Assembly: GCA_018060845.1 (NCBI GenBank)
Contig: JAGOVG010000008.1
Coordinates: 1-34,545 of the forward strand
DNA length: 34,545 nt
Reading direction: 5' to 3'
Source: Candidatus Woesebacteria bacterium
GTDB lineage: Bacteria; Patescibacteriota; Microgenomatia; UBA1400; UBA12108
In this document: piece after piece, positions 3,200 to 33,504 of the stretch
Layout: every line of letters starts with the position of its first letter
How positions within the stretch are numbered: the stretch's first letter is position 1
Program-made: the position numbers and the translations under genes
Notes under the pieces: generated by a model
The model's input: the letters and a program-made list of their open reading frames with translations, nothing else
Told to the model about the DNA's origin: nothing
The model's database searches: none

Positions 3200-3200
3200 A

Positions 3201-3566: not shown

Positions 3567-3570
3567 ATTA

Positions 3571-4584: not shown

Positions 4585-4589
4585 AATAC

Positions 4590-5291: not shown

Positions 5292-5297
5292 TTGATT

Positions 5298-6008: not shown

Positions 6009-6071
6009 AAGAGATCTCCTTATTATAAGTAACTTACGTATCCCCCAGTATACCATCCTGGGATAATGTGT

Positions 6072-6701: not shown

Positions 6702-6725
6702 AGTTAGCCACTATACAGCTACTAA

Positions 6726-7939: not shown

Positions 7940-7941
7940 AT

Positions 7942-9087: not shown

Positions 9088-9135
9088 GAATATATATTCG
9101 CCCTTTTTTCGGTAAAAATCAAGCAGTTAAAGATT

Positions 9136-11559: not shown

Positions 11560-12150
11560 TTAGTTGAGATGAGCAACGACCACGTAGCGATCCCGGTCTA
11601 GCAGACCAATGCAGGTATAGAGGGTTAGGCGGGAGTCGGCGGTATTACGAGTGAGTGAGGTATCATCAGGGGCGATGGTCGCAGTATAGGTGACGGTATA
11701 CGCAATCATCTCAGACTCACTGAGGCTGACAGTAATCAAATCTCCTGGTTTTAGGTCTGGCAGGCGCTTGAGCATGTTTGGCCAATTGTGACCATAGATC
11801 ACGGTATTACCTGAGCTACCAAAACCTGCAGAGTTACTAGCATACGATAACCCCTTGGTAGTAGTCTCCCATTTGCCACCCACAACAGTTGATGGATATA
11901 TAGGCAGAGTGATGCCGAGCTGCTCAATACGCATAAAGGGATAGATGGGGGTTGCGACTGGAGACTCAACCTCCAGTGACTGATCCATGATACTAGGGGG
12001 TACCACGCTATACTCGATCGGGATCACGCGGTAGCGGAGATAGAGCCTGTTTAAGATGAGTGCGGCAGTAAGTGCAGCTGCCACGACCCAAATACTAGGA
12101 TACTTGGATTTTTTACTCTTTGACCTCTTGGGAGATTTAGTTCTTTTCAT
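11560..12150 (-). CDS. sortase (cysteine transpeptidase)
   Basis: A 196-aa membrane-anchored transpeptidase that would cleave a sorting signal between Thr and Gly and attach the protein to the cell surface. A basic N-terminal tail and one helix (about 18-36) anchor it with the catalytic domain outside. The His is in V-I-Y-G-H-N-W (His121), the Cys in T-L-Y-T-C (Cys180) and the Arg in D-R-D-R-Y (Arg186 or 188), giving the full sortase triad. The TLYTC form with short C-terminus fits class D/E-like enzymes better than class A. It overlaps by 14 bp the end of the gene for its probable substrate, so enzyme and substrate are made from one message. Confidence 0.93.
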   Translation of the reverse strand: MKRTKSPKRSKSKKSKYPSIWVVAAALTAALILNRLYLRYRVIPIEYSVVPPSIMDQSLEVESPVATPIYPFMRIEQLGITLPIYPSTVVGGKWETTTKGLSYASNSAGFGSSGNTVIYGHNWPNMLKRLPDLKPGDLITVSLSESEMIAYTVTYTATIAPDDTSLTRNTADSRLTLYTCIGLLDRDRYVVVAHLN

Positions 12151-12745
12151 GGCGAGACTGACGCAGGCCAGTAAAGATAAAGATGAGTGCGAGAACGGTT
12201 AGAGCGAGTAAAACTAGGGAGTCACCAGTTGCGGCTAAGCCTAGAACATCGCCTTCGCTCGGGCTACTATTACTGCTAGAGCTATTTGAGCTAGAGTTGC
12301 TACTCGAACTTGAACTACTGGAGCTAGAACTAGGTGTGGGAGTGTTCCTACAGCTATAGCTAACATTTTTGGCAACAAAGGGATCTGCGACTAGTCCCCA
12401 GAGAGAGCCATCGGGGACATAGAACCAACCCTCTTTTTTTAGGACTTCGACCTGCTCTTCACTCAGTGAGCTAGCGTTCCACCAGTTGGTCTGGATGCCT
12501 GTACCATCAACACTACAAAAACACTGTAGGAGTGTGGACTCATCGAGGTCATAGACCGCGTCTGTTCCTACATATTCACTAGTGGAGCCGACGATGCCAT
12601 GAGTACCATTAGGATAAAAGACTCGGAGGGTACCTTGAGGAGACAAACATGAGGGGAAGTTGGGGGTATCGACAGCGTAAGCTGGGATATAAGAATTGGC
12701 TATGAGACCTAATGAAATAATGAGTGACGATAGTATTTTACGCAT
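12137..12745 (-). CDS. LPXTG-type surface protein with Ser/Asn-rich stalk, probable sortase substrate
   Basis: A 202-aa secreted protein. The signal peptide (1-24) would be cut after A-Y-A. A domain of about 110 residues with four cysteines (near 33, 75, 77 and 132) follows; two copies of a Trp-containing stretch (T-N-W-W near 87, G-S-L-W-G near 113) are visible, but I do not recognise the fold. Residues 139-162 are a stalk of Ser and Asn. The C-terminus is a complete cell-wall sorting signal: L-A-A-T-G at 170-174, a hydrophobic helix 176-193 and the positive tail RQSRHEKN. It is followed immediately by the sortase gene and preceded by a strong promoter and an AAGGA SD eight bases before the ATG. 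Confidence 0.88.
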   Translation of the reverse strand: MRKILSSLIISLGLIANSYIPAYAVDTPNFPSCLSPQGTLRVFYPNGTHGIVGSTSEYVGTDAVYDLDESTLLQCFCSVDGTGIQTNWWNASSLSEEQVEVLKKEGWFYVPDGSLWGLVADPFVAKNVSYSCRNTPTPSSSSSSSSSSSNSSSNSSSSNSSPSEGDVLGLAATGDSLVLLALTVLALIFIFTGLRQSRHEKN

Positions 12746-13820: not shown

Positions 13821-15458
13821 CTATTTATTGTCTTTGATCACTGCCTCGGTCTGGAGACGATCCATAAACTCAGGTTTTAGCTCGTAGATGTCGGCAAAGG
13901 GATAGGCTGCCACACGGGTATAGTTGGCAAAGCCTGGAGTGCGCGAGACTGCGCGCCAGGTTAGATCGGCGTCGTCGTAGGTGCGCATAATAATCCATCT
14001 GGCCCAGTGGTCGGGAGTCGTTGTCGCACTCTCCCAATATTTGCCTGTGCCCTCATGGATAAAGCGCTTCATGGGGAGTTTGCTACTAAAGATAATGGCA
14101 TCATGGCTAGCTGCGGAGATTAGGATAAATCCTTTTTCTTTCTTTGCGTTCGTTTCTAAATAGCCCGAGACTTCGCTCACGTTCTTTTGGCTACTACCTA
14201 CTCTCGCATCATCAATTGCTACTGAGTCAGCACTGATAAAACCTATTAATGTGACTAGTAATAACATTGGGATAATAACTAACCTCCAAGATTTGTACCT
14301 ATCCACTAAGTAACCGATCATAATTGCAATTGTAGGTGATAACATAACACCATACCGTATGTTAAACCAAGTATCACCAGATATTCCTTGAACGTAAATA
14401 ACAGAAAATCCAAGGTAAAGCGCCATTATGTTAAAGATCAACGGAGCCCAAAGCGATGTAAAAGCAACCTTTGTTCTGTTGTCTATCTTTTTGTCTACAG
14501 ACAAAAAGTATGCTCCTATTAGCGATAAAACAAATGGTACCGTGTAGCTGCTATATAGTAAGGAATACATGTAGACTTTAATTGACAAAAAGAGGTTCCA
14601 TTTTGTCGGTAGTACTCCAGCAGATTCCATTACGAGCTGCTGCGCGTGGGCGGAGAATTCGCCCAACATAAAGTAGAGGGGGTCCTTAAAGATTAAGAGA
14701 TTCCACATAAACCAACCAAATACTCCAGTTACTGCTAAAGTCGAAAATAGGATAGTTATACCCTCTACATGGGATAGCCTCTCTCTCCATGAACCCATAT
14801 GCTTACTACTACTGAATGCTTGATTCATTACTAGCAATCCTGCAACTCCCAGCAAAAACCAACCATCATACCTTACTAAGGTCGCCATCATGATCCAAAA
14901 AGCTGCCTTAATTAGTGAAAGAGTGTCACTTTGCTGATGCCAATTTATAAGATAGTAGCAACCAGCTGTCATTGTGAATAACAGGAGTGGTTCGGTCATT
15001 GCGGTTGATTGGAGATAGAGAATATTAATATTCGCGGCAAATACAACTACACCAATTAATTTTCCTAAAAGTCCTATATTAATTCTACCTAGTATTTTAA
15101 ATATCAAAACACCAGTGCCAATAAATGAGAGCATGTTCCAAACTGCACCAGCGAAGCCAGAATGCCACATCCAGTCGTTCCAGATGAGAGGTACCATAAG
15201 GATATGGTTTAGTGGCAGCCAGACAGACCCTAGCTGAGCTAAGCCAGGTTTTAATCCTTCAACAACCCGCCGTCCAATATCCAAGTGTGACCTAGCATCG
15301 TTATACGAAAGAGCTAAGCCATTGTTTAAGTAGTATATGTAAGATAACACTGATGTTATAGTCATTAAAATAATGACTAGAGTTAGTGCGTGATGAGTCA
15401 ACAATTTCTTTATTTGTAAAATAAATATTGAAAACTTATAAATAGGTATTTTTATCAT
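13821..15458 (-). CDS. polytopic GT-C-like glycosyltransferase (PMT/ArnT type)
   Basis: A 545-aa protein with about ten membrane helices that probably transfers a sugar from a polyprenyl-phosphate donor on the outer face of the membrane. The first outer loop carries Y-N-D-A-R-S-H-L-D-I-G-R-R near residues 52-64, the acidic site typical of GT-C enzymes (mannosyltransferases, ArnT). M-T-E-P-L-L-L-F and L-V-R-Y-D-G-W follow, also typical. The C-terminal 110 residues form a soluble outer domain. It overlaps the dehydrogenase gene by 4 bp. Base composition changes near 14200 (residue about 420): the N-terminal part is AT-rich, the C-terminal part matches the GC-richer flank, so the gene looks like a recombinant. 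Confidence 0.8.
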   Translation of the reverse strand: MIKIPIYKFSIFILQIKKLLTHHALTLVIILMTITSVLSYIYYLNNGLALSYNDARSHLDIGRRVVEGLKPGLAQLGSVWLPLNHILMVPLIWNDWMWHSGFAGAVWNMLSFIGTGVLIFKILGRINIGLLGKLIGVVVFAANINILYLQSTAMTEPLLLFTMTAGCYYLINWHQQSDTLSLIKAAFWIMMATLVRYDGWFLLGVAGLLVMNQAFSSSKHMGSWRERLSHVEGITILFSTLAVTGVFGWFMWNLLIFKDPLYFMLGEFSAHAQQLVMESAGVLPTKWNLFLSIKVYMYSLLYSSYTVPFVLSLIGAYFLSVDKKIDNRTKVAFTSLWAPLIFNIMALYLGFSVIYVQGISGDTWFNIRYGVMLSPTIAIMIGYLVDRYKSWRLVIIPMLLLVTLIGFISADSVAIDDARVGSSQKNVSEVSGYLETNAKKEKGFILISAASHDAIIFSSKLPMKRFIHEGTGKYWESATTTPDHWARWIIMRTYDDADLTWRAVSRTPGFANYTRVAAYPFADIYELKPEFMDRLQTEAVIKDNK

Positions 15459-16372
15459 ATAAATTTTGATGGGTTAGAATTAAATAAGTTGTTAACCGCG
15501 TCTACTGCCATCCTTTGGTGTGCCTGCTTTGTAAAGCCTGCAATATGAGGCGAGAGAAGTGTGTTTGGCAAAGACTGTAGATTTTTGTCGATGTTCGGTT
15601 CATTACAAAACACATCAAGCGCGACACTATCGATCTTTCCGTCTTTAACGCATTGGATTAACTCTCCTTCGTCGATTAGCTCGCCACGAGAAACGTTGAT
15701 GAGAGTAGCTCCATTTTTAATCAAAGATAAGCGAGTCTTATTAAACATCCCTCTAGTCTCTTTGGTTAATGGAGACTGTATGCTGATAATATCAGATCTC
15801 TGTAGCAAATCATCTAATCCAACTAGATTAACACCTAATGTCGTAGCCAAATCGGGACTGACGTATGGATCATAAGCTAGGAGCTCTACTTCAAATGGTA
15901 TAAGGCGCTTTGCAACTTCACGGCCTACCGCACCAAGACCTACCATGCCAAATGTTTTTCCTGACAACTCCTCTCCAATTAAATTAAATGATCGCCATTC
16001 ACCATTTTGAAGATTTTGTGACTGTTGATTAATCTTGTGAAGATTAAAAATTGTGCAACCTACTACGTACTCTGCAACGCTCTTCGCGTTAGAGCCTGGA
16101 GAGTTATAGATTTGAATACCCCTATTCTTGGCTAATGTAAGATCTATGTTATCAAGACCGACGCCTGCTTTTAGTATAAACTTTAGATTAGGAAGATCAT
16201 CGATAATGACTGCATCGATCTTGGTATATGTCCTAACGAATATACCTACTACTTTATTTTTGATATCCTCTGACAGAGTGTTAATTATAGTAACGTAACC
16301 ATTATCTCGAAGCATTGTTAGAGCTGAAGGGTCGATTTCTTTGTGATCAATAACCCATACTATATTATTCAT
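15455..16372 (-). CDS. D-2-hydroxyacid dehydrogenase (SerA-like)
   Basis: A 305-aa NAD-dependent dehydrogenase that interconverts a 2-hydroxyacid and a 2-ketoacid. It has the Rossmann motif G-L-G-A-V-G at 145-150, the adenosine-binding Asp168, and the catalytic set Arg229 (S-R-G-E-L), Glu258 (N-E-P) and His276 (S-P-H-I-A-G). It lacks the regulatory ACT domain of 3-phosphoglycerate dehydrogenase. It overlaps the upstream membrane gene by 8 bp and the downstream gene by 4 bp, so it is a genuine member of the glycan operon. It might make a hydroxyacid used as a glycan substituent, or be a passenger; substrate choice cannot be read from the sequence. Confidence 0.9.
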   Translation of the reverse strand: MNNIVWVIDHKEIDPSALTMLRDNGYVTIINTLSEDIKNKVVGIFVRTYTKIDAVIIDDLPNLKFILKAGVGLDNIDLTLAKNRGIQIYNSPGSNAKSVAEYVVGCTIFNLHKINQQSQNLQNGEWRSFNLIGEELSGKTFGMVGLGAVGREVAKRLIPFEVELLAYDPYVSPDLATTLGVNLVGLDDLLQRSDIISIQSPLTKETRGMFNKTRLSLIKNGATLINVSRGELIDEGELIQCVKDGKIDSVALDVFCNEPNIDKNLQSLPNTLLSPHIAGFTKQAHQRMAVDAVNNLFNSNPSKFI

Positions 16373-17876
16373 TTTGATCCTTTTTATAGAGAATGAGGGG
16401 AAGAAGTATTGTAATAACGATACCGACAGAAAGTAGGTAATGTAGCTGTTCTAGATTGAGGTACGGTGAGAGCCACAAATTGTAAGGCAGTGAACTAGAT
16501 TTGTTTACTTTAATCAGGTTCAGGTTGTATTGATAGTCATCAGGAATCCGATCCACTAAGGACTCAGTATATACATCAGGTGGCACTACTGTTGTGGTAA
16601 GGGCGCCAGCAACTGATACATATACGCTCGGAATGAGGAGCAATAAAGTTATAGCTAAAGGAATTATTTTTGATTTAATATTTGATAAATATAGACTCAC
16701 GAATACTGACAAAAAAGCAGTAGTTGGCAACAAATAACGTGGTCCAAATGACCAACCACCCCATGGATCATTAAACGTAGCATAAATAATCAAATTTAGT
16801 GCAATTGTTGAGATGGTGATAGCATGCAAAGGAGTGTTTAGCTTGGATGCCCAGATGTAAATTATGCCAAGAAGACCAACGATTAATACCGGGAAGTAAT
16901 AGAAGATGCCGCGCGTGTCGCTAAATATAAGCGTGTAATATCCACGAATTTGCCGCTCAGTATCAAATTGCTTAAATTTCTCTTTAGTTGCAGATGTGGT
17001 AGTTGGAGTAATGTGAAGCTGTGTGTTTACACTATCAGGAGGGTATATGGCACGTCCCAACCTTTGTCCAAGCTTAAATGGTGAACCGGCCGCAGTGTTA
17101 TTATATAAACCAAAAATTAATAACGGAATTAATAGCCCTACTACAAAGAGCGTAATATTTGGGTTTATGTGCAGTTGGATTGGATTCTTATAGCGATCAT
17201 AAATGACTCTAAAGAACTTAATACAATAATAGACAAGTTGAGGCATGAATAGAAGCGAGTTAGGTATATCTACCATTATCCCTAAGCCGTATAGAATACC
17301 GAAAATAACAGCCCGCAAAAAAGTTATCTCCTTGTAGATGAGTAAAGTCAGAGAGACACCAATTGCAACACTAATACTATGCTGCGTAAGTGTACCTGAG
17401 TATGCATGTGCGTTTGTAGCAAACGCATAAAGTAGACCAGCAAACATCGCGTATGACTGTTTGGCACCCATGGCTTTTGCCAATCTTGCTATCAAATAGA
17501 TGTTGATTACTGATGTTACTGATATGAAACCAAAAGTGAATAATTGCGGATAACCTATAATTTTACCAAGAGCATACGACGGCAATGCTAGTAATGCTAC
17601 ACCAGGTGTAAAGATGGAGATATAACGATTATTTACTTTTGATAAGTCAGGCGAAGCTAGGGCAGCCAGTTCAGAATTAAGAAATATTGTTCTGTCTTCG
17701 AAAAGTGATCTTACTAAGGCATAACGAGAAGAACTATGTGAACTCTCAAAAGCAGATGTTTCGTAGTTATCTAGAAAACTGCTATTTTGGTATACGCTAT
17801 TCTTGTCACCTTTAACTGCGAATAAGGTGAAAATCAAGCCTAGTAAAAAGATAGCTAAAAATTTTGTTATTCTCAT
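16365..17876 (-). CDS. polytopic membrane protein, probable GT-C-like glycosyltransferase
   Basis: A 503-aa protein with about eleven membrane helices. The N-terminal loop between helices 1 and 2 is long (about 22-85) and contains S-S-R-Y-A-L-V-R-S-L and N-R-Y-I-S-I-F-T-P-G, a layout seen in PMT/ArnT-like and related bacterial GT-C proteins, but without the sharp acidic motif of the neighbouring gene. D-P-W-G-G-W-S-F-G-P-R-Y-L-L-P near residue 377 is a strongly conserved-looking outer loop typical of this group. It overlaps the GT4 gene by 4 bp. Function as a sugar transferase is inferred from topology and neighbours; a polymerase (Wzy-like) role is the main alternative. Confidence 0.65.
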   Translation of the reverse strand: MRITKFLAIFLLGLIFTLFAVKGDKNSVYQNSSFLDNYETSAFESSHSSSRYALVRSLFEDRTIFLNSELAALASPDLSKVNNRYISIFTPGVALLALPSYALGKIIGYPQLFTFGFISVTSVINIYLIARLAKAMGAKQSYAMFAGLLYAFATNAHAYSGTLTQHSISVAIGVSLTLLIYKEITFLRAVIFGILYGLGIMVDIPNSLLFMPQLVYYCIKFFRVIYDRYKNPIQLHINPNITLFVVGLLIPLLIFGLYNNTAAGSPFKLGQRLGRAIYPPDSVNTQLHITPTTTSATKEKFKQFDTERQIRGYYTLIFSDTRGIFYYFPVLIVGLLGIIYIWASKLNTPLHAITISTIALNLIIYATFNDPWGGWSFGPRYLLPTTAFLSVFVSLYLSNIKSKIIPLAITLLLLIPSVYVSVAGALTTTVVPPDVYTESLVDRIPDDYQYNLNLIKVNKSSSLPYNLWLSPYLNLEQLHYLLSVGIVITILLPLILYKKDQNE

Positions 17877-19114
17877 ATTTTGTAAGCCTCGCTAGATTTG
17901 TAGAGTAGCTTAATTAACTTACTTATCTGTTTTGTAAAATTATATTTAGATCTAGATAGAGAATAATTGCTACTAGAGTAGTTATTATACAAATCTGAAT
18001 TGGTTAATAAAAGGTAGATTGCCTCAGCCATTCTAATTGCATTTTTTTCTGGAACTACCGAGCCGCCGAAGTTGTCACTAGCTAGTTCTATAGAAGTTGC
18101 ATTAGAGGCAATCACCATCGGTAGAGACGAAGCCATCGCTTCTAAGTACATCGCTGGCATAGACTCAGATATTGACCCTGAGACGAATAAATCACTCTCT
18201 TTGTAATATGTGCCTATAATGTGTTTTGGAACATATCCTATGAATTTTACATATTCATTTAAACTATACTTTTTAACTAACTTTTCTAAGTTATTTAATT
18301 CCGGCCCATCGCCAATAATATTAAGCTCAGCCTGTCTATAATTGAGTATATTAACGAGGTGATTAAAGGCAGCGATTACGGTTACAAAATCTTTACGTCG
18401 CACTAAATAGCCAACTGAAATAACTCTATACTTATTACGTTTCAAAAGTTTTCTTGGCTTACTAAGAAATGACGTAGTGTCTGAACCTATGGTTAGTCGT
18501 GTGAGTTTTTTTAACTGCAAACTAGAAAGGAGGTCTAGAGAGGCATGGTCTTTCGCAACTACTAGACTTGCTCTTTGGAGCGTTTGGTTAGAAAGATTCT
18601 GACTTAGCGACTTGAATTTATAAAATACTGAATCGATTATCCTTGTTAATTTGAGGAAGAAATCGGTGGAATAGCTTTTCCTGCCCATAGACCTGCCTTC
18701 GTCAGCTGCTAAAAAGGTATGTGGTGCTACGATCGGACCTATCACTGTTGCCACTTTTCTGGCACTAGAAAGAAGCAATATATTAAATGTTTCCCCGATT
18801 GCAAAAGGACCATTATGCCAGAGAAGATCGTAGTGATTCTTAGATAAAAGTAATAGCCCTTTAACATAAACCCAGAAGATGAACCGAAGTCTAAGAAGTA
18901 TAGAGATATATTGTGGCTTACTCCCTAACATGGCGTGTATATTTAGGTTTCCAATTTTATTTTCTTGCATGTATGCCACTAAGACGTCTCCAGAAACATT
19001 TTTATACTCACTGAGTGCTGTCAGATAGTCATAGGCACGTGTATACTCACTCCCATCTTGAGGATTCGGACAATAGTGTAATGGCGCGATTAAGATAGAT
19101 AGCTTATGATTCAT
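17873..19114 (-). CDS. GT4-family glycosyltransferase
   Basis: A 413-aa retaining glycosyltransferase of the GT-B fold. The C-terminal donor domain shows V-I-S-V-G-Y-L-V-R-R-K-D-F at about 231-243, E-L-N-I-I-G-D-G-P-E at 263-272 and the E-x7-E element S-E-S-M-P-A-M-Y-L-E (Glu317 and Glu325). The N-terminal domain is less conserved and has a hydrophobic stretch (about 70-90) that may dip into the membrane. It overlaps the fusion gene by 11 bp and the next gene by 4 bp. It would add a sugar from a nucleotide donor to a lipid-linked glycan in the cytoplasm. Acceptor and donor are unknown. Confidence 0.9.
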   Translation of the reverse strand: MNHKLSILIAPLHYCPNPQDGSEYTRAYDYLTALSEYKNVSGDVLVAYMQENKIGNLNIHAMLGSKPQYISILLRLRFIFWVYVKGLLLLSKNHYDLLWHNGPFAIGETFNILLLSSARKVATVIGPIVAPHTFLAADEGRSMGRKSYSTDFFLKLTRIIDSVFYKFKSLSQNLSNQTLQRASLVVAKDHASLDLLSSLQLKKLTRLTIGSDTTSFLSKPRKLLKRNKYRVISVGYLVRRKDFVTVIAAFNHLVNILNYRQAELNIIGDGPELNNLEKLVKKYSLNEYVKFIGYVPKHIIGTYYKESDLFVSGSISESMPAMYLEAMASSLPMVIASNATSIELASDNFGGSVVPEKNAIRMAEAIYLLLTNSDLYNNYSSSNYSLSRSKYNFTKQISKLIKLLYKSSEAYKI

Positions 19115-22100
19115 AGTATTTTCTACCTATATTTAGATATCCGTCACGGTTAACACTAGGAATACTGTATTTAGTTAATAATATGTATGGAATCAACTTC
19201 TTTTCCTTTGAATTCAGTATTAGTTTTTTGTTAGTCGAGATGGACTCTAACAATTTACATAGTGTCAGATCATAACTCTTTAGTGTATATACACCATGTT
19301 CGAGATCTAGGAGATAATAACTGTCACCTCGTTTAATAATGTTTTCTGGCTTTAGATCACGATGGGCGAAGACAAGTTCCTTAGAGTCAAATTGTATCAG
19401 TGAATAGAGTGATGAAACAAATACTCTTGTTAAGAAGGGGGCCTGACGAAGAGAGTTAGTGATAATCCCAACTATATATAGCCAGAGTGATCCGAGAATT
19501 AAATCGTAATTGCTTAGTCGCTTTACTTTGGATCTTTGCTTTTTGGTTAGGGTGCTGTAGTTTAGTTGATTTAAGGATGGTAGTACGAAGTCGTAGATTT
19601 CTTTATATGTAATAGCTTCATCTTTGTTATTGTCAATATACTGATTCACTATTGAGAGAGTATTTTTTGATTCCAGAATGTCTACTACTGCAGGAGTACA
19701 GAGTTTTTTACTAGTCTTTGACAAGGCGAGAGCACGAGCTAAGTTTATTGAGTTTTCTGCTTCCCGAATTAAATTATAGTAGTGATAATCTTTTTGTTTG
19801 TAAATGTATGACTTGATAATGAATTTATCATGTCCCTTAGAATATAGTCCCACATGATATTTGGTACTTTTGTTAGAGCTACTGAGTTTTCTTATTTCTT
19901 TATACTCAGGCACATTGATGTGATTCATTGCTTTAAAATTTTTATTTGTAGAGCTAAAACTGTCCCAAAGCTGCAATAAAAGATGCTTACCAACTGGTTC
20001 TGTTATCATTTTGGTAGATAGCAAACCAATTAAGAGTGAAGTGCTTTTTTCCCAGTCAAACTGGCTAGCCCATTTGATTGCTTTATTCGAAAGTTGTGAT
20101 CGCAAACTATTGTTTTGGATAAGTTTGATAACCATTTCTGATAACTCAGTAGTATTGCCATACTCAAATAAGTATCCACTTTCTCCATCCTTTACAGCAT
20201 CGCGGAGGCCAGGAACGTTGCTGGCTACAATCGGAGTACCACAAGCATTTGCTTCGATTGTGGTAATTCCCCATCCTTCGATTAAGCTAGGATTTACGAA
20301 AACCCAAGATTCTTGATATAGTTTTAATTTCTCTTTTTCACTAACTTTACCGACAAACTTAATACAATGATCGAGCTTACGTTTAACTACTAACTTTTCT
20401 AGGCTGTTTCTTGCAGGGCCATCACCAGCGATTATGCATCTGACTTTGGGAATATCTGACACTACCCTTTTCATAGACTCGATTAAGAGAAATATGCTTT
20501 TGGCGGTTGTAAGACGCCCGAGATAGAGTACGGTCGGGTTGAGAGATTTTTTACCAGGTTTAAATGTATTTAGATCTACTCCATTGTAAACAATCTGTGG
20601 GTTCTGACTAGTCAAATTATGAGAGTTTATTGCTTCTTTACTACTCGGACTAACAGTCATTACCTCGGTTTTTCTATAAACTAAGGGCATAATCCTTTTC
20701 TCTAAGAACTGTGCTATATAGGAAAATGGTGGGATTAAGCTAGTCCTAAATACATCCTGATGAACGTGATGTATTAGTAACACTACTTTCTCTTTTACAT
20801 ATAAAGGAGTGAAAAATGGCAAACCATTCTCACTATCAATAATCACGTCGTATCTACCCCTAAATCGGAAGTAGTAGTATAAGAAGGCCCAAACATATAC
20901 TAGGTAAAATCCTCCACGCCGAATCACTCTAACTCCGTCAATCTTCTCATGTCTTATGCTTTTGCCATCATTACCCGAGAATATTGTCACTTGATGTCCG
21001 CTCTTGACCATCCGTTTACTCAACTCGTGAATATATACTTCTGCACCACCTGCCCACTTATGCCGGAGGTCTCGCCAGTTAAAGATAAGTACGCGGAGAT
21101 ATCCTTGAGGGAGTGGAGGTAAAGGAGGTAGAGGCTTAAATAACCCAAAAAAGTCTACTGTTGCATCCAGGATACTTTTGACTAAGTCGTAGTAGTAATT
21201 AGAAATTAGAATAACAATAAAACATGCGAGCGAACTACCGAATGAAACTATTACTAGTGATTCTATTGAGGAGTGAAGTAGTGACATTATAAATGCTTGT
21301 GCAAGACTAAAAATGAATCCAAGAACTGGGAAAATATATCTTTTTTGAACTTGTTGATAGGTGATAATAGTTGAGCTAATAGAGAACAGAGCTACACCTA
21401 TGGTATAGAGTGGCAGATACTGAACAATTTCTTTTGTTTGTGATCCCCATAGTAACGGAGCAGTAACTGAACCAAAGAAGCCAAAAATAGCTACAGCGAA
21501 AAGATTGGCAGATGTAACTAGTAGCATGATGCGAGAGAAGTTTCTCTTTGGATTGATACCTGATCCGAGATCTTTACTTGTATATGGAATTACAAACTGA
21601 CTAAATGTATTACCCATGAAATATACCATCTTGCCAGAAAGAGAGAGGTAACTATAAAGCCCTGCTTCGATCGGACTAAGAAAATGTTTAGCGATAATAA
21701 TATCTAGACTTAGATAAGCTACTTTTGAGAGCGTACTAAGGAGTGATGTTATATAAAATTTCTTGGAAATGAGTTCTACCTGACTATCATCTACTATAAG
21801 TGAGTTTTTGTGATCTTGGCGACGACTTTGATTCCATTCAATTCCTAGCATTAGGAGCATCGCTATTGGAGTTGAAAGGTAGATAAGATCGGCTAGATCT
21901 AGCCCTACAAATAGACTAGTGAGGAGTAGTTTTGAGATCGATTCAATGACCGTGGTTAGCGCAGGAATAGTAAATAGTAGTATTCCGGTTAAATACCCAC
22001 CAGTAATAGCGCTTAATGTACTTATTATCCATAGTGGACTAAAGATAATTAGTAGATTAGGAGTCTCTAGCTTGAAGAAATTCTGTAAAATAGGGATACT

Positions 22101-24578
22101 CAAAATCCAAAATAGAGAAACAATCCCTACAGGCAGAATAATTTTTCGAGTTATTCGAGTCAGATGACCATTTATAGGCTTACCATACTTTCCAACTACG
22201 AAAGCTGTGCTGTGACTGACTGCCTTACCAAGAGGATTAGTAAGAATCGAGGCTATATACAATAAGCTCGAGAATAAACTCAGATCTCCAAATGAAGTGA
22301 TATCTAGCCTACGCGACAAATACGCGTTATAGAGGAAGTTCATAAAATTGCCGAATACATTAGCAAGCACCATAACACCACCGGCATTCCAGACCGAGTT
22401 AATACGATCTACCAACTTCTGCAGAGAGCGAGAACGAACATTAGTAGTACGATTAATCAATACAGACTTTTTGGTTTTGGTCAGACCGTGCAGCGTCTTT
22501 TCCCAGTAGTGTGGTTTGGTAATTAGCTGGACTAGGGCGACGGCTGCGGCGTAGCTGATCGCGAGCCAGTAGAGAGGGATTAGGAGCACATACTTAATGA
22601 GCTCCCAGTGTCCACGTTTGGCGCAGCCAATCATGTAGTTGTAGAGCGCGATAAAGTTGCCCAGGAGGAGCGAGGTCACTGCCATATAAAAAACAACCGC
22701 GGGGTAGATACTCTCGATAAAGGCGCCGACCTGAGCGTAGAGGACAAAGTAACTGATAGTCATGATCCACAAATATGGGTTGATCAAAATAAAGGCGATC
22801 TTGCCACCGACGATTAGGTTAAAGAGGAGTGCGTGGACCCCCTGCTTTTTGAATAGTGCGACAGGATGGCGCATGTGGACGAGATAAGTCTGCATGTACC
22901 CTTTGAGCCAGCGGGACCGCTGCCTAATCCAGTTACGAAAATTATTATTAGCTTCTTCTAGGGTCGTACTATCTATAATGGCGGTCTGATAGCCGGCGTT
23001 AAATAGGCGGGTACCAAGGTCCGCATCTTCGGTCACATTAAAAGCGTCCCAGCCATGAAGATCGCGTAGGAGCTGAGTCTTAAAGTGGTTGCTGGTACCA
23101 CCAAGTGGAATCGTGGTCTTAATAGACTGGAGCCCTGGTAGGATGACGTCAAACCAAAGACTGTACTCGGCAGTAAAGAAGCGAGTCAGGAGATTGTCGC
23201 GACTATTAAAGTAATTCAATTTGGCTTGGACACAACCGATTTTGTCATGACTCTGAGACAGAGCTAGGTAGGCTTTTTTGAGCTGAAGTGGCTCGGGCTT
23301 GTCCTCGGCATCGTAGATAACTACATACTCACCTTTAACAAAAGCTAGACCATAGTTGCAGGCCTTTGGTTTGGTCTTGGGGTAGCTGTGCGGGACTATG
23401 ATCGTTCGATAGTGCGCGGGGAGGTCTAGCTCTTTGGCCATTTTGATAGACTCTTTGTCATCTTCTTCGAGTAAGAGCAAAATATCTAGTTTGGTTTTGG
23501 GATAATCGAGGCCATCCATAGAGTGGATAAACTCAGGGAGCACATTGGCTTCTTTGTAGAGCGGGACGAGGATCGAGTAGATCGGAAGATCTTTGTCTTT
23601 GATGCTCGCTAGCTCATCACTAGTTGCGATAATCTCAGGAGGAAAGTGCAGACTCTTGAGTGTGACATAGAGATTAAAGAGTACGTCTATCAAATAGATC
23701 AAGCTTAAGGTGGCAGTGAGAACGATCAAGGTACTAATAGGCTCGACCACAAATCCCCAGCCGATCGCTATCACTAGCGCGGAGATGAGCGTGACCTGCC
23801 ATGGGGCAAAGGTCTTGAGGGCTGAGATGTGATGAGGGAGCGTGGAGTGGGTGACAAAATGATTCTTTTTAAAAGTTACGCCGGCACCGAGCATCTGCTC
23901 GACCGGTAACTTGACATAGACGGGGTTAGAAAAGATGTAGCGAAGAGTCGAGTTGTTTTGGGAGAGCGTCTTTTTGATTTTGGCGAGGAATGGCTTGGGA
24001 CGGCTAACGTGAGGAGTGTCCCTTTTGACTTTGTAGACAGGGAGTCCAAGGTTTTTGGCAGTGTAGCTTAGCTCGGCCTCGATATTCCATTCGTTGAGGG
24101 TGTTGGGATTGAGGTGTGCAAAGACGTGGCGAGGAAAGATCTTAGGACCGCGGTGGAGACGATTCTTAAAGAGCTGTTTCCAAGAGAATGGAGTATAGGT
24201 GAGCCCGTAGCCAGTCCCGATGTTCCTATACTGGGTGAGTAGCTGTGGCATGCAGTCTGCCAGGTCAGCGTCGAGGATAGCGATGTGCTGTCCACGTGCG
24301 ACAGAGTAGCCAGCGAGAATACTGTCGCTCTTACCCAGTCTCGCAGAATTGCGTAGTCGAATAATCTTTATAGGACTAAGACTCGGCATTATATAACTGT
24401 CGGTACCATCGCTACTGCCATCGTCGACTATGATGACCTCTGTTTTTGAGGGTAGTTCGTTGAGGCGATCCTTGAGGTAGATAGCTAGTTTTTGGAGGTT
24501 ATTTTTCTCGTTGTGCGCAGGAATAATCAGGGAGAGGGCGAGCTTGATTTGGTCGTTATTTTTGCTTGTCTTTGCCAT
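19104..24578 (-). CDS. five-module fusion: GT2 - GT2 - Wzx-like flippase - GT4 - kinase-like
   Basis: One open frame of 1824 codons. Modules in order: (1) DPM1/GtrB-like GT2, about 12-230, V-D-D-G-S at 51-55 and D-A-D at 103-105; (2) membrane helices 258-310 and a processive-type GT2, about 332-690, with the Asp motifs Y-D-A-E-D at 422-426 and T-E-D-A-D at 516-520, R-Q-R-S-R-W at 552-557 and later helices; (3) a flippase-like run of about 12 helices, 723-1140; (4) after a proline linker near 1149-1158, a GT4, 1160-1512, G-G-A-E at 1177-1180 and the Glu motif at 1434-1449; (5) a kinase-like domain, about 1540-1824, H-R-D-L-K-P-E-N at 1739-1746 and D-L-E at 1758-1760. Together it could build, flip and modify a lipid-linked glycan. 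Base composition shifts near residue 700. Confidence 0.88.
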   Translation of the reverse strand: MAKTSKNNDQIKLALSLIIPAHNEKNNLQKLAIYLKDRLNELPSKTEVIIVDDGSSDGTDSYIMPSLSPIKIIRLRNSARLGKSDSILAGYSVARGQHIAILDADLADCMPQLLTQYRNIGTGYGLTYTPFSWKQLFKNRLHRGPKIFPRHVFAHLNPNTLNEWNIEAELSYTAKNLGLPVYKVKRDTPHVSRPKPFLAKIKKTLSQNNSTLRYIFSNPVYVKLPVEQMLGAGVTFKKNHFVTHSTLPHHISALKTFAPWQVTLISALVIAIGWGFVVEPISTLIVLTATLSLIYLIDVLFNLYVTLKSLHFPPEIIATSDELASIKDKDLPIYSILVPLYKEANVLPEFIHSMDGLDYPKTKLDILLLLEEDDKESIKMAKELDLPAHYRTIIVPHSYPKTKPKACNYGLAFVKGEYVVIYDAEDKPEPLQLKKAYLALSQSHDKIGCVQAKLNYFNSRDNLLTRFFTAEYSLWFDVILPGLQSIKTTIPLGGTSNHFKTQLLRDLHGWDAFNVTEDADLGTRLFNAGYQTAIIDSTTLEEANNNFRNWIRQRSRWLKGYMQTYLVHMRHPVALFKKQGVHALLFNLIVGGKIAFILINPYLWIMTISYFVLYAQVGAFIESIYPAVVFYMAVTSLLLGNFIALYNYMIGCAKRGHWELIKYVLLIPLYWLAISYAAAVALVQLITKPHYWEKTLHGLTKTKKSVLINRTTNVRSRSLQKLVDRINSVWNAGGVMVLANVFGNFMNFLYNAYLSRRLDITSFGDLSLFSSLLYIASILTNPLGKAVSHSTAFVVGKYGKPINGHLTRITRKIILPVGIVSLFWILSIPILQNFFKLETPNLLIIFSPLWIISTLSAITGGYLTGILLFTIPALTTVIESISKLLLTSLFVGLDLADLIYLSTPIAMLLMLGIEWNQSRRQDHKNSLIVDDSQVELISKKFYITSLLSTLSKVAYLSLDIIIAKHFLSPIEAGLYSYLSLSGKMVYFMGNTFSQFVIPYTSKDLGSGINPKRNFSRIMLLVTSANLFAVAIFGFFGSVTAPLLWGSQTKEIVQYLPLYTIGVALFSISSTIITYQQVQKRYIFPVLGFIFSLAQAFIMSLLHSSIESLVIVSFGSSLACFIVILISNYYYDLVKSILDATVDFFGLFKPLPPLPPLPQGYLRVLIFNWRDLRHKWAGGAEVYIHELSKRMVKSGHQVTIFSGNDGKSIRHEKIDGVRVIRRGGFYLVYVWAFLYYYFRFRGRYDVIIDSENGLPFFTPLYVKEKVVLLIHHVHQDVFRTSLIPPFSYIAQFLEKRIMPLVYRKTEVMTVSPSSKEAINSHNLTSQNPQIVYNGVDLNTFKPGKKSLNPTVLYLGRLTTAKSIFLLIESMKRVVSDIPKVRCIIAGDGPARNSLEKLVVKRKLDHCIKFVGKVSEKEKLKLYQESWVFVNPSLIEGWGITTIEANACGTPIVASNVPGLRDAVKDGESGYLFEYGNTTELSEMVIKLIQNNSLRSQLSNKAIKWASQFDWEKSTSLLIGLLSTKMITEPVGKHLLLQLWDSFSSTNKNFKAMNHINVPEYKEIRKLSSSNKSTKYHVGLYSKGHDKFIIKSYIYKQKDYHYYNLIREAENSINLARALALSKTSKKLCTPAVVDILESKNTLSIVNQYIDNNKDEAITYKEIYDFVLPSLNQLNYSTLTKKQRSKVKRLSNYDLILGSLWLYIVGIITNSLRQAPFLTRVFVSSLYSLIQFDSKELVFAHRDLKPENIIKRGDSYYLLDLEHGVYTLKSYDLTLCKLLESISTNKKLILNSKEKKLIPYILLTKYSIPSVNRDGYLNIGRKYYES

Positions 24579-24962: not shown

Positions 24963-25012
24963 ATCCAATAAATTGGATCCCATTGACTATCAGAAGATTC
25001 TGATGTCTCTGG
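24963..25012 (-). other. 50-nt two-hairpin insertion near the 23S 3' end
   Basis: In other bacteria the A-G-C-T-G-A-C-C-x-G-T stretch is followed at once by TACTAATA. Here about 50 bases intervene, forming two simple hairpins (TCAGAA/TTCTGA and ATCCAAT/ATTGGAT), and the following bases read TACGCATG instead. It lies in the last exon close to helix 1. It may be an expansion segment or a short element excised or tolerated in mature rRNA. Confidence 0.55.
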
Positions 25013-25274
25013 ACAGGTCAGCTAAACACTTTGCAGTGCGTACACCTCCTGCCGATTACCTGGTGGTCTTCCAGGGATCTACCGTCTATATTTCTATAAA
25101 CAAGGAATTCTCATCTTGGGGCGTGTTTCCCGCTTAGATGCTTTCAGCGGTTATCACTTACCAACGTAGCTACTCTGCGATGCGTCTGACGACTACAACA
25201 GAAACACTAGCGGTTGGCTCACTCCGGTCCTCTCGTACTAAGAGCAACCCCCCTCAAAATTCCAACGCTGATAA

Positions 25275-25317
<43 letters not shown>

Positions 25318-25345
25318 ACGTAGCGCTTTAATGGGCGAACAGACC

Positions 25346-25376
<31 letters not shown>

Positions 25377-25498
25377 CGCTGAGCCGACATCGCTCAATAA
25401 TTATTTAATTGTCTCCAATTAGTTTTGACTATACCATCACCTCTCTAATTAAATAGAGGGTGCCAACGTTTTATAGAGATATTTTATCCCTATCTTCA

Positions 25499-25514
25499 CC
25501 CCGCCAAGGCGGGG
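25499..25514. repeat. short palindromic unit, type A (in intron)
   Basis: CCCCGCC-AA-GGCGGGG, nearly the same core as the palindrome at 31681-31692. It sits downstream of the endonuclease ORF in a peripheral part of the intron. Confidence 0.5.
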
Positions 25515-25531
25515 ATCCAGTCGATACGGGG

Positions 25532-26092
25532 TTATATCAAAATTTTGTATGCCATAGAAGGAATTATGTATGGTCGAATAATATCGACAAACTTTTTGGA
25601 TTCTTTGACGTTAAATCGTAATCGATAATATTGCTTATCTTGATCACGACTGACAGTCAACCCAAAATATCTAAAAAGGAGTCTACCCAGTAAGAGTTGT
25701 TCTTGTTCAGGGAACACCTGCGTATTGAGGTAGCAACTTTTATCACACAAACTTCCGTCGTCCATGTACCACACTGCCATAATGCGAGCATTTAGTTCTA
25801 AATCAAGAGGAATTATCTTCTTTTTATTGATATAAAATTGATGATATATAGAAGTAAAGCAAGGCATGCTAGCGGTAAAAAACCGATAGCCTACTCTCTT
25901 ACCATTACCTTTATATGATTTTGGCGGCGTTAGTACGCAATTATTTAGGACGCTATACTTCCAATCAACGTAGTCTTTTTGATGAATACTATGTGTGATT
26001 TGGAGATGTGCATTGTTTTTGCAACGCATATATCCATCACCAAGCATACATCCTATTACTACATCTGATTGTAATTTTGACAAACTTCCCAC
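25532..26092 (-). CDS. LAGLIDADG homing endonuclease encoded in the 23S intron
   Basis: A 186-aa intron-encoded endonuclease that would cut intronless 23S genes at the insertion site and so spread the intron. Two LAGLIDADG motifs are present: V-V-I-G-C-M-L-G-D-G at residues 11-20 and R-I-M-A-V-W-Y-M-D-D-G at 103-113, each with its metal-binding Asp; the W-Y-M-D-D-G form is typical of the LAGLIDADG_2 (PF03161-like) group. The start is a GTG at 26092; an in-frame TAG lies 18 bases upstream, so no longer protein is possible, and no SD is evident. The frame is open and both motifs are intact, which suggests the enzyme is still functional. Translation must occur from the precursor or the excised intron. 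Confidence 0.93.
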   Translation of the reverse strand: MGSLSKLQSDVVIGCMLGDGYMRCKNNAHLQITHSIHQKDYVDWKYSVLNNCVLTPPKSYKGNGKRVGYRFFTASMPCFTSIYHQFYINKKKIIPLDLELNARIMAVWYMDDGSLCDKSCYLNTQVFPEQEQLLLGRLLFRYFGLTVSRDQDKQYYRLRFNVKESKKFVDIIRPYIIPSMAYKILI

Positions 26093-26650
26093 GGTATTGC
26101 CCTATTCAAACGCTTGATTCTAGTATTACCGAAATAACACCGAATATCAAGTGGGTTCAATGAATGAGGGTTTCACCGTTATGAGTTGGTTTTTCTTTAG
26201 ATCATTGATCTAAAACAGCACTCAGATCTTACAATCTGAGGACCCCGATATGTTGAGGTAGCGAACTGCACCGTCGCTGTGGACGCTCAGGTGCAACTAC
26301 TCTGTTATCCCCGGGGTAGCTTTTATCCGATAAGCCCGGTACCTCCCACGAAGTACACGAGGATCACTAGGTCCGACTTTCGTCTCTGCTTGACTTGTGT
26401 GTCTCACAGTCAGGCATCCTTATGCCCTTGCACTATCATTCCGATTTCCATCCGGAATTAGGATACCTTTGAGCGCTTGCGGTACTCTTTAGCAAGCAAC
26501 CTCCCCAGTTAAACTGCCTCCCAGACAGTGTCCTCTCCCTCGATCCAGAGGGATAAGTGAGAAACTCACGTTTCAAAGAGTGGTGTTACATGATCGCCTT
26601 GCGGCTCCCACCTACGCTACACAGTCAAAACATAAATTTCAGTGTCAAGG

Positions 26651-26683
<33 letters not shown>

Positions 26684-26758
26684 TTACCAGTAGGCCGCAT
26701 CTTCACAGCCATTTCAATTTCGCCGAGCCCTCCCTCAAGACAGTTATGAGATTGTTAA

Positions 26759-27102
<344 letters not shown>

Positions 27103-28588
27103 ACCATAGAACAGTTATAGTTACTGCTGCCGTTCACCAGGGCTTCAATCAAAGGCTATCCCGAACAAGTCGGGGTTACCCTCTCAGTTAACCTTCTGGC
27201 ACTGGGCAGGCCTCAGCCCGTATACGTAGGCTTACGCCTTCGCACAGACCTGTGTTTTTGTTAAACAGTCACCTCATAGTCTTTATCTGCGACCCATTTT
27301 TTGAATACAAGTACCCAAAAAACAGGTTAGGCATCTCCCTAAGTTACGCCTAGCTAATTTGCCGAGTTCCTTAAGGAAGGTTCTCTCGCTCACCTTGGTA
27401 TACTCTACCAGTTCACCTGTGTCGGTTTGCGGTACGGATTTTGAACATTCTCACTGCGAAGGTTTTCTTGGATTCAGAAAGGATACAAGATCACGCTGGC
27501 CGAAGCCAACATTTTCCATCACGTCTCGGATCGTAATGCCAACTCCGGATTTTCCTAGAGTCAACTCCCTTAACGCTTGGACGCAAATTCGATAATGCGC
27601 CTTGCCCTTCCTAAACCGTCACTCCCCAGTTGATAACGAACGCCCAAAAGGACAGGAATATCAACCTGTAATCCATCGACTACGCCGGCATTACACCAGC
27701 CTCGCCTTAGGGCCGCCTAACCCAACGCCGACGAACGTTGCGTTGGAAACCTGGAACATACGGTGATAAGGATTCTCACCTTATTCTCGCTACTCATCCC
27801 GCCATTCTCACTTCTGACCACTCCACCGCCCCTTACAGGACGACTTCACAGTTGTCAGAACGCTCCCCTACCACTTATAAACGATAAATCGCTTACAAAT
27901 CCGTAATTTCGGTACATAACTTGAGCCTCGATGGGTCTTCGGCGCCACAATCCGAGACTAGTGAGCTGTTACGCTTTCTTTCAAGGATGGCTGCTTCTGA
28001 GCCGACCTCCTAGCTGTATATGGATTATGACTTCCTTGAGCCACTTAGTTATGATTTTGAGACCTTAATTGACGATCGTGGGTTGTTTCCCTTTTGCCCC
28101 TGGAACTTAGCTCCCAGGGACTGACTCCCAAGCTGAACATGTTGGTATTCGGAGTTTGATAAAGTGAGAGACCTTGCGATCCCGCACCTTTTCAGTGCTC
28201 TACCCCCATCATGCAATCACTTGAGGCTATACCTAAATATATTTCGGGGAGAACCAGCTATCTCCGGGTTCGATTGGCATATTACCTCTAACCACAAGTC
28301 CTCCAAGAATTTTGCAGCATTCACTGGTTCGGGCCTTCCCCCACTTTTACATGGGGTTCACCCTGCTCATGGTTAGCTCACTCCGGTTTCGGGTCTTGGA
28401 CGCACTGCTAATCGGACTATTCATCCTCGCTTTCACTACGCCTCCGCGACGATATCGCTTAGACTTGCAGTACATGCAAACTCGACGGGTCATTCTTCAA
28501 TAGGCACGACATCATCCGGATAAATCCAGACTCTGTCTGTTTGTTAGCATACAGTTTCAGGTACTATTTCACTGGGTGTCTCACCCAT

Positions 28589-28629
<41 letters not shown>

Positions 28630-29148
28630 TGTTGCGTATTTAGCCTTGCCCCGTGGTCGGGGCGGATTCCGCAGGGAGTTTGCCGTCTCCCAACGTACTT
28701 AGGAACTATACTACCAAGTTAGAGATTTCGATTACGCGACTATCACGCACTATGGTCACCTATTCCACGGTGTTCTTCTATCTCTTACTTGACGTTATGT
28801 ATAGCCCTGCAACACCGTAATAAATTACGGTTTAGGCTGTTCCCTTTTCGCTCACCGCTTACTAGGGGAATCTCGTTCGATTTCTTTTCCTCCGGGTACT
28901 TAGATGTTTCAGTTCTCCGGGTTACCTACTCGCAGATAAATCTGCGGTACACTGCCATTACTGACAGCGGGGTTACCCCATTCGGACACCGCCGGGTCAA
29001 AGGATTATGGCTCCTCACCGACGACTTTCGCGGCCTTATACGTCCTTCTTCGGCACAACATGCCTAGGCATCCACTATATGCTTTAGTTGAGTAGCTTGA
29101 TACTTAAATTTTTATTAAAAAATCAAAAAAATTGTTTAGATGCTTTCC

Positions 29149-31764: not shown

Positions 31765-33504
31765 TTATTTATTCTCAACTTTTATTAGAAAATCTTGGTA
31801 ACTACCAATAAGAGTAAGTTTTCCTTTTGAGATCGAGTAGATGCGATCACACTTTTCTAGTGTGGCAGTACGGTGTGTGATCCAGATTGTAGTATTATTG
31901 CCGGGTCGATTACCCACATTGTCTCGGATTATTTTTTCTGTTGTAACATCGAGAGAGGAGGTAGCTTCATCAAAAATAATTATTTGTGGATTACGATAGA
32001 TCGCTCGAGCGATTCCAATTCGCTGTCTCTCTCCACCTGATAATCTGTAACCTTTTTCTCCTAGGACAGTATCTAGTCCATTTGGTAGCTTCTTTATGAC
32101 TGGATCGAGATGTGCTATCTCGATTGTTTGCTCTAATGATTCGCTAGACTGTGAACGCATTAAGGTAATATTCTCTCTAAGCGACAAGTCAAAGATCTCA
32201 GAGTCCTGGAGTACTAGTGCAATATTTGCACTAATTGTGTCGTGATTGATGGAGTCGAAGTCGACATTGTCGATTTGATATGTCCCCTGAGTTAAAGGCA
32301 GTATCCCGATCATGATCTTGGAAAGAGTTGATTTACCACTACCTGTTGCTCCGATAATGCCTACATGTTCTCCCTTGTTAATCGTCAAGTTAACATTCTT
32401 TAGACTGACTTGTTTAGGCGAAGTATCTAAATTGTCATAGTCAAAAGTAGCGTTTTTTAGTTTGATCTCACTCCAATTAGTTGGGAATTCGACCAGTACT
32501 CTTTCACTACTTACGTTCTTGCTCCAAAAAATTGGCATCATCCGGGCGATTGCGATCTTGGCAGATATTGTTTGTTCGTAGACACTCAAGATATTGCTAG
32601 CGTTACCGGTTAGTTTTTCTAGATAACCATAAAAGATAACGATCGACCCGAGTGTAATTGCGCCTGTAATATAGTCGTGGCCAACAAGCAACAGGTACCC
32701 TGCAATGCAGAGCCCGTTAAATACTTGAAATGCGATCCACTGGCCAATGCCGTAGCGACGACCCAAGTACTCATACTTTTTCTTGATGTCCTCTTTTTCG
32801 GCTATCCTATTGTTAAATGAGTCTTTGGCTCCCAAAGTTTTGATGGTTAATATATTACTCAAACCCTCTACATACGACCCACCACTTTGTTCTGATGCCT
32901 TGTTGTAGTCATTTTTGACCTGTTGGATCCGTGCATAATAAAATTTGATAATTCCAAAAAACCCAGCTAAGTAGAATAGTAAAAACAGTAGATATTGGGA
33001 ATTGAGATAAGTAAAAATTACGGTGATACCGATTGTGGCGGTAACCGCTTGAAACAACTCATTGTTGATTTGTTCTGAAAGAGTCACGAATGCCTGAGTA
33101 CCATTTTGTAATTTTTGTGCCTTGGCACCTGCTACTTCGGCGCGACTATCTAACCAGGACAGACTAAGTAGTCGATCAAAACCTTTTACGTTAATATCGT
33201 AGATTATATTTGTTCGAAGATTGCCTAGTGCTTTTTTTAGAGAGAGACGGATATATGATACAAGAGAGAATGATATCCCGAGAAATAGAGCGTAAAAATA
33301 AAAGGTGACTAGCGACTCTCCAGCCTGATAACTACCAAAAAAATCAATGATTTTTGCCAATAATAAGGGAGGGATAATAGAATAAAAACTAATCAAGAAA
33401 AGGGGGATAATGTAGAACACATATTTCTTCCGCCTATTTCCTGTTAGCTGTGAGTAAGCCTTTACTAAGTCCCACCAAGAAAAATTTAACTCTAGTTGCT
33501 TCAT
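31765..33504 (-). CDS. ABC exporter, fused permease and ATPase (MsbA/LmrA-like half-transporter)
   Basis: A 579-aa type IV ABC exporter half that would work as a homodimer, moving lipids, peptides or drugs out of the cell. Six membrane helices fill residues about 28-310. The ATPase domain has Walker A G-A-T-G-S-G-K-S-T at 385-393, a Q-loop in V-L-Q-D-S near 431, signature L-S-G-G-E at 488-492, Walker B I-I-I-F-D-E at 508-513 and the switch His544. All catalytic residues are intact. It is the only gene between 16S and tRNA-Ile on this strand, 215 bases downstream of the 16S end. No terminator is visible between 16S and this gene, so partial co-transcription with 16S is possible. The cargo is unknown. 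Confidence 0.93.
   Translation of the reverse strand: MKQLELNFSWWDLVKAYSQLTGNRRKKYVFYIIPLFLISFYSIIPPLLLAKIIDFFGSYQAGESLVTFYFYALFLGISFSLVSYIRLSLKKALGNLRTNIIYDINVKGFDRLLSLSWLDSRAEVAGAKAQKLQNGTQAFVTLSEQINNELFQAVTATIGITVIFTYLNSQYLLFLLFYLAGFFGIIKFYYARIQQVKNDYNKASEQSGGSYVEGLSNILTIKTLGAKDSFNNRIAEKEDIKKKYEYLGRRYGIGQWIAFQVFNGLCIAGYLLLVGHDYITGAITLGSIVIFYGYLEKLTGNASNILSVYEQTISAKIAIARMMPIFWSKNVSSERVLVEFPTNWSEIKLKNATFDYDNLDTSPKQVSLKNVNLTINKGEHVGIIGATGSGKSTLSKIMIGILPLTQGTYQIDNVDFDSINHDTISANIALVLQDSEIFDLSLRENITLMRSQSSESLEQTIEIAHLDPVIKKLPNGLDTVLGEKGYRLSGGERQRIGIARAIYRNPQIIIFDEATSSLDVTTEKIIRDNVGNRPGNNTTIWITHRTATLEKCDRIYSISKGKLTLIGSYQDFLIKVENK

Follow-up and report, generated by a model that had tools for sequence, protein, structure and literature searches.

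The protein described here is a real and recurrent architecture, built from known parts and apparently undescribed, in which two GT2 glycosyltransferase domains, a Wzx/MATE-type flippase domain and a GT4 glycosyltransferase domain lie in one reading frame. Glycosyltransferases of surface glycans and flippases of lipid-linked sugars are ordinarily separate proteins. The case at hand comes from a contig of a Candidatus Woesebacteria bacterium (34,545 nucleotides; this whole stretch of DNA is called the window below), where a kinase-like domain is added at the C-terminus; a four-module protein is widespread, and this five-module form elaborates on it locally. The features of the open reading frame (ORF), located by ORF prediction and module scans, are as follows.

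19104-24578, minus strand: fusion ORF of 1824 amino acids, in the order GT2a, transmembrane (TM) linker, GT2b, flippase, GT4, kinase-like domain
23874-24578, minus strand: GT2a (residues 1-235), a GT-A domain of the DPMS/GtrB/ArnC type, decayed in this genome
23589-23873, minus strand: conserved linker (residues 236-330) with two predicted TM helices
22461-23588, minus strand: GT2b (residues 331-706), a cellulose-synthase-like GT2 with DAED, TED and QRSRW motifs and 3-4 C-terminal TM helices
21204-22376, minus strand: flippase domain of the Wzx/MATE type (MOP; residues 735-1125) with 12 predicted TM helices
20043-21095, minus strand: GT4 (residues 1162-1512) with a GGAE loop and an E-x7-E motif
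19125-19955, minus strand: APH/choline-kinase-like domain (residues 1542-1818) with K, HRDLKPEN and DLE intact

The initial annotation had reported a single frame of 1824 amino acids. Its coordinates are right and the frame is open from an ATG through 1824 codons, but the strand is minus; on the plus strand this interval is crowded with stops. A Pfam scan of the ORF gives strong matches for GT2a (residues 16-107; PF00535), GT2b (334-620; PF13641/PF13632) and GT4 (1177-1503; PF13439/PF00534). GT2b is the most conserved module, with a median identity of 64% to its relatives (56-68% to the window protein in a diverse set). All the motifs of processive-type GT2 enzymes (D, DxD, TED, QxxRW) are present together with flanking TM helices, the DAED, TED and QxRW positions are invariant in the family alignment, and the best relative of the family profile among solved structures is cellulose synthase (2e-20). 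In the GT4 module the E-x7-E motif is likewise conserved in the family. The flippase, with 23-36% identity to its relatives, is the least conserved of these three core modules. In the window protein its match to PF01943 (E = 1e-4) lies under the curated cut-off and emerges only from a scan restricted to residues 723-1140; among the relatives, 4 of 16 members match Polysacc_synt (best 4e-11), and matches to PF01943, PF13440 and MatE occur in the family. Aligned by hhalign with the canonical stand-alone Wzx of the same genome, the domain scores E = 6.5e-6 over 309 columns. The sole match of the flippase profile to solved structures is spurious, and single-sequence AlphaFold models of the kinase and flippase pieces have pLDDT values of 37 and 39, too low to be informative.

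The first GT2 tells a different story from the second. The family profile of GT2a (A5) matches DPMS (1e-38), GtrB (6e-33) and ArnC (5e-31), a family whose products are polyprenyl-monophosphate sugars and not a lipid-PP primer. In the window copy VDDGSSDGT and DAD are kept, but YPPE and D-x-QSG-x-K, two segments that relatives conserve, are gone, so that the initial annotation's statement that all key motifs are intact fails for this domain, which is probably inactive here. GT2a is missing in at least ten relatives; in genome G037 the copy is beyond recognition, and in the sister genome (G005) it forms a separate ORF of 141 amino acids in a different frame. Decay, repeated loss and the kind of product made by the family all speak against the proposal that this GT2 primes a lipid carrier.

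How widespread is the fusion? In a first search of 89 genomes, the window's own included, we found single ORFs of about 1536-1603 amino acids with the same first four modules, as well as pairs of adjacent ORFs with the same halves. With a GT2b profile (A2), matches came from 11 of 88 order-level genomes (threshold 1e-100), 60 of 374 class-level genomes (1e-90) and 20 of 380 genomes drawn from the phylum (1e-70). About 70 loci were retrieved and their modules marked by profiles built from the family itself, giving 71 GT2b ORFs from some 65 genomes of one phylum. GT2a, TM linker, GT2b, flippase and GT4 share one frame, without the kinase, in 31 of the 71, and one more, that of the window, adds the kinase. 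Thirteen keep flippase and GT4 and have no recognisable GT2a in the ORF; three carry the flippase and are open at contig ends; three have GT4 without a flippase; and in the remaining 20 the flippase is not fused. The two halves can also be adjacent genes, with a 4-base overlap at locus L046 and nearly abutting at L048. Variants with GT2a, GT2b and GT4 in one frame and no flippase were seen at L114, L128 and L142. The presence of the four-module fusion in dozens of independent genomes excludes chance and artefact, and homologues are evidently not always encoded separately. The phylum-sample genomes listed measure about 0.5-1.7 Mb; the rRNA is bacterial, with a group I intron in the 23S gene, and together these features probably point to Patescibacteria/CPR. 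The suggestion that a small-genome, CPR-like bacterium carries glycosyltransferases and a lipid-glycan flippase on one polypeptide is supported, and the domain order recurs in full except for the kinase. A separate search of genome contigs for related loci gave one unrelated archaeal GT4. Neither Pfam nor NCBIfam holds a model of the fused architecture, and the open-access literature on flippases and glycosyltransferases in Patescibacteria, CPR or Saccharibacteria contains no description that matches it, in line with the initial annotation, which knew of no such protein.

The initial annotation read the kinase as the last step of a possible pathway. Instead, it is a C-terminal addition found in two genomes, those of the window and G005, and a separate neighbouring gene elsewhere: stand-alone homologues occur in many clusters, and at L046, L094, L101, L103, L126 and L145 the kinase gene directly follows the fusion or its flippase-GT4 half. 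With only two fused cases, a founding role for the kinase in the family is ruled out. The domain itself looks sound. Scanned alone, the window kinase gives a weak match to PF01633 (E = 3e-5), and the full-ORF scan a weak choline-kinase match at residues 1723-1772; its relatives match PF01636 (APH) in 13 of 17 cases and PF01633 in 7 of 17, and an alignment with 16 relatives shows K, H-x-D, N and D to be fully or almost fully invariant. The two fused kinases share 22% identity, as against 31% between the window kinase and the stand-alone kinase of L101, so separate captures and a later exchange are both possible. The GT2b tree, poorly resolved in parts (33 of 68 inner branches are open), pairs the window with G005 as its sister (97). 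On this tree the fused or unfused state requires about 10-11 changes, which means that fusion and fission have both occurred, or that modules have moved. The distance matrices of the modules correlate weakly (rho from -0.13 to 0.48), and modules therefore seem to have been exchanged rather than to have strictly co-evolved.

In the gene maps the fusion comes first in a cluster whose further GT2, GT4, kinase, deacetylase and aminotransferase genes vary; after these come two conserved genes that we call c1 and c2. In the window, the genes on this side of the fusion are the following.

17873-19114, minus strand: stand-alone GT4, overlapping the end of the fusion ORF by 11 bases
16365-17876, minus strand: c1, a multi-TM protein of 503 amino acids from a second PMT_2-like family
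15455-16372, minus strand: D-isomer 2-hydroxyacid dehydrogenase, otherwise found only in the cluster of the sister genome
13821-15458, minus strand: c2, a GT-C (PMT_2-like) glycosyltransferase of 545 amino acids
12800-13807, minus strand: c7, a conserved protein that looks secreted, has no Pfam hit and resembles a glycosidase (TIM-barrel) by eye only

Homologues of c1 are present in 29 of the studied loci. The closest partner is c2, which occurs in 12 of 12 fusion-bearing and 0 of 10 fusion-lacking genomes, a modest and related set searched with a profile built from the family's own clusters. In the 12 genomes c2 is always on the same contig as the fusion, within about 15 kb. The conserved unit thus reaches past the fusion protein to the c2 GT-C, and the picture of a self-contained assembly line drawn in the initial annotation does not agree with a nearby gene that tracks the fusion in all 22 genomes tested. 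By Pfam, 4 of 15 c2 family members are PMT_2-like; the c2 profile has no match among solved structures. Where GT2b units lack the flippase half, c2 is usually the gene that comes directly after them. Some c2 ORFs are longer, at 857-887 amino acids (L049, positions 3279-5849; L144; L153), and all of these directly follow GT2b; the L049 ORF, the one scanned, joins a GT-C to a GH5-like glycosidase. In the window, dTDP-sugar (Rml-like), sortase-like and surface-protein-like genes were recognised by eye after the cluster (1926-9861 and 11560-12745).

On which side of the membrane do the modules lie? Hydropathy averaged over 46 fused proteins shows two helices ahead of GT2b, another three behind it and 12 peaks in the flippase; the window's own profile has four helices after GT2b. 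With the helices between one soluble module and the next even in number, GT4 and the kinase would lie on the cytosolic side with the GT2s. By this hydropathy estimate GT2a, GT2b, GT4 and the kinase are all predicted to be cytosolic, in agreement with their need for nucleotide donors, and GT4 and the kinase would then be unable to act after flipping. The initial annotation had read the domain order as the order of the pathway, with flipping followed by GT4 and then the kinase. Such a sequence of steps is unlikely given the predicted topology, and we have discarded it.

On balance we favor the view that the fusion acts as a membrane-bound synthase and flippase for a cell-surface glycan, akin to a three-component transmembrane glycosylation system. 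Architecture, recurrence, co-occurrence and motif state are observed; activities, topology and substrates we infer as follows. The BcsA-like GT2b and GT4, judging by their folds and intact motifs, would assemble a conserved sugar chain on the cytosolic side, and the Wzx/MATE-type domain, by homology, would carry the lipid-linked sugar or oligosaccharide outward. There the c2 GT-C, with c1, may finish or decorate the glycan from polyprenyl-phosphate sugars. The N-terminal GT2a would charge the polyprenyl-phosphate carrier in most relatives; in the window genome, where it has decayed, another GT2 would have to supply the charged carrier. The fused kinase most likely phosphorylates the sugar of a cytosolic intermediate or of a precursor. 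Fusion of the modules would maintain their stoichiometry and pass intermediates along.

Three-component systems such as GtrA/GtrB/Gtr, or Ribf with its polyprenyl-P-sugar synthase, MATE-family flippase and GT136 GT-C (PMC11127046), combine a DPMS/GtrB-type GT2, a flippase and a GT-C partner. Counterparts of all three are seen here: a GT2 that is decayed in the window, a flippase domain that is a candidate for moving the donor lipid, and a GT-C putatively acting outside. Unlike those systems, the present one has the GT2 and the flippase in one chain with a second GT2 and a GT4, its flippase is Wzx-like rather than GtrA, and its synthase module has in many cases decayed or been lost. As in the Wzx/Wzy pathway, a MOP-family flippase stands among variable glycosyltransferases, but the surroundings of the fusion contain no recognisable PGT or Wzy-type gene. 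Among the scanned cluster proteins there was no Pfam match to Wzy_C, a search that a Wzy too divergent for Pfam would escape. Nearly every genome has PGTs (PF02397) and PF00953 proteins, whether it carries the fusion or not. The PGT matches lie on other contigs, or far from the fusion in single-contig genomes, and the single PGT of the window genome is on another contig (C14). That contig (loci L158 and L159) bears a canonical cluster with a separate Wzx, an O-antigen ligase/polymerase, PMT_2 proteins and the PGT. Precedents for joining an enzyme or a kinase-like domain to a lipid flippase exist in MprF, a fusion of synthase and flippase (PMC11980842), and in mycobacterial MurJ, a flippase with a pseudokinase (PMC6180346); the synthase domain of MprF is unrelated to those described here, and in contrast to the pseudokinase of MurJ, the kinase motifs of the fusion look intact.

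The strongest competing explanation, which we regard as unlikely though worth keeping in sight, is that GT2b is a processive synthase-translocase extruding a homopolymer by itself, with the flippase-GT4 half as a tethered pathway for side-chain donors. GT2b could move its own polymer as BcsA does, with the flippase serving another substrate. The BcsA-like profile, the QRSRW motif, the two N-terminal and 3-4 C-terminal helices and the existence of flippase-free GT2b units paired with c2 are in keeping with this, and the motifs and helix layout recall synthase-dependent systems at large (BcsA/BcsB, HAS, PgaC). Relatives of GT2b at about 40-50% identity are found outside the phylum in Geobacillus, Actinomycetota and Alphaproteobacteria; on a Geobacillus plasmid (L160) a 50% identical relative lies between BcsB and a GT39 protein. 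However, no BcsB was recognised in the window cluster, and in most relatives the flippase half, with GT4, is fused in frame to the synthase. In Nonomuraea (L163) the GT2b relative adjoins a c2 homologue (E = 1e-68 over 493 columns) that carries additional sequence at its N-terminus. The Geobacillus and Nonomuraea neighbourhoods also count in favor of the synthase and flippase reading given above. Among 72,556 plasmid records, not one matches 80% of the fusion at a single site, and the best of those listed reaches 26%. A ManC-like neighbour in Geobacillus and a GH113 neighbour in Hyphomicrobiales serve only as a lead that GT2b might make a mannan; c7 has no similarity to the GH113 protein.

We give less credence still to a glycolipid or lipoglycan anchor, in which GT2b and GT4 would glycosylate a membrane lipid, the flippase would turn it over and GT-C enzymes would extend it. 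Lipid mannosyltransferases, PimA for one, are among the GT4s that the GT4 module matches, and genes for PIG-L deacetylases, polysaccharide deacetylases and GT-C proteins recur across the clusters; but the PIG-L and GT4 family matches are generic, and no lipid-anchor gene was recognised.

Base composition changes abruptly within the window ORF.

22242-22493, minus strand: GC3 change point in the fusion ORF (best codon 757, range 696-779)

GC3 is 0.58 before about codon 757 and 0.32 after it, with a likelihood gain of 63.6 compared to at most 7.6 in 100 shuffles; a weaker break is present in c2 near codon 460 (gain 8.8 versus 7.4). The sister ORF of G005 is even. Over the 46 fused ORFs, GC3 is usually slightly higher in GT2b than in GT4 (0.456 versus 0.407), and the difference exceeds 0.15 in only 2 of them. 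From 13.8 to 22.5 kb the window has a GC content of about 0.34-0.41 within a region of 0.43-0.53, and the edges fall inside the fusion ORF and c2. This pattern suggests that a low-GC cassette of about 8 kb has recombined in within two conserved partner genes, the fusion and c2; a chimeric window contig is a less likely cause. It is possible, as a tentative extension, that the protein is a one-chain machine for glycan assembly and export, handing intermediates from GT2b and GT4 (plus the kinase) directly to the flippase and then to a dedicated GT-C. The variable stretch from the flippase-GT4-kinase half to c2 might then be exchanged by recombination, with the swaps falling within the open frames of GT2b and c2, its conserved partners, and so switch the coat of an ultra-small bacterium. 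That the fusion itself is an assembly chimera or a frame error joining separate genes, for which the sharp GC3 break could be cited, is extremely improbable, and recurrence rules it out: dozens of independent genomes have the modules joined in this order within a single frame, the GT4-kinase fusion appears again in G005 (though the gene is there split over two contigs), and two in-frame joins would be required, one of them near a domain border.

The cell-surface chemistry of Patescibacteria is largely unknown, and their contact with host cells depends on the surface. The module families are known; what would be new, if borne out, is the in-frame union of a flippase with a GT4 and two GT2s throughout many families of a single phylum, as an architecture for making surface glycans. 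For Patescibacteria this would define a glycan pathway that is open to testing, with one gene as its marker and an unvarying partner. The covalent link between glycosyltransferase and flippase would also make it possible to ask directly whether the enzyme channels lipid-linked glycans to the flippase.

Elsewhere in the window, the 23S rRNA gene is stretched to 4.1 kb (24986-29102, minus strand; intervals 25532-26092 and 26843-27081) by sequence that includes a group I intron and an ORF resembling a LAGLIDADG homing endonuclease, and an ABC-transporter-like gene (31765-33504, minus strand) lies with other ORFs between the 16S and 23S rRNA genes.
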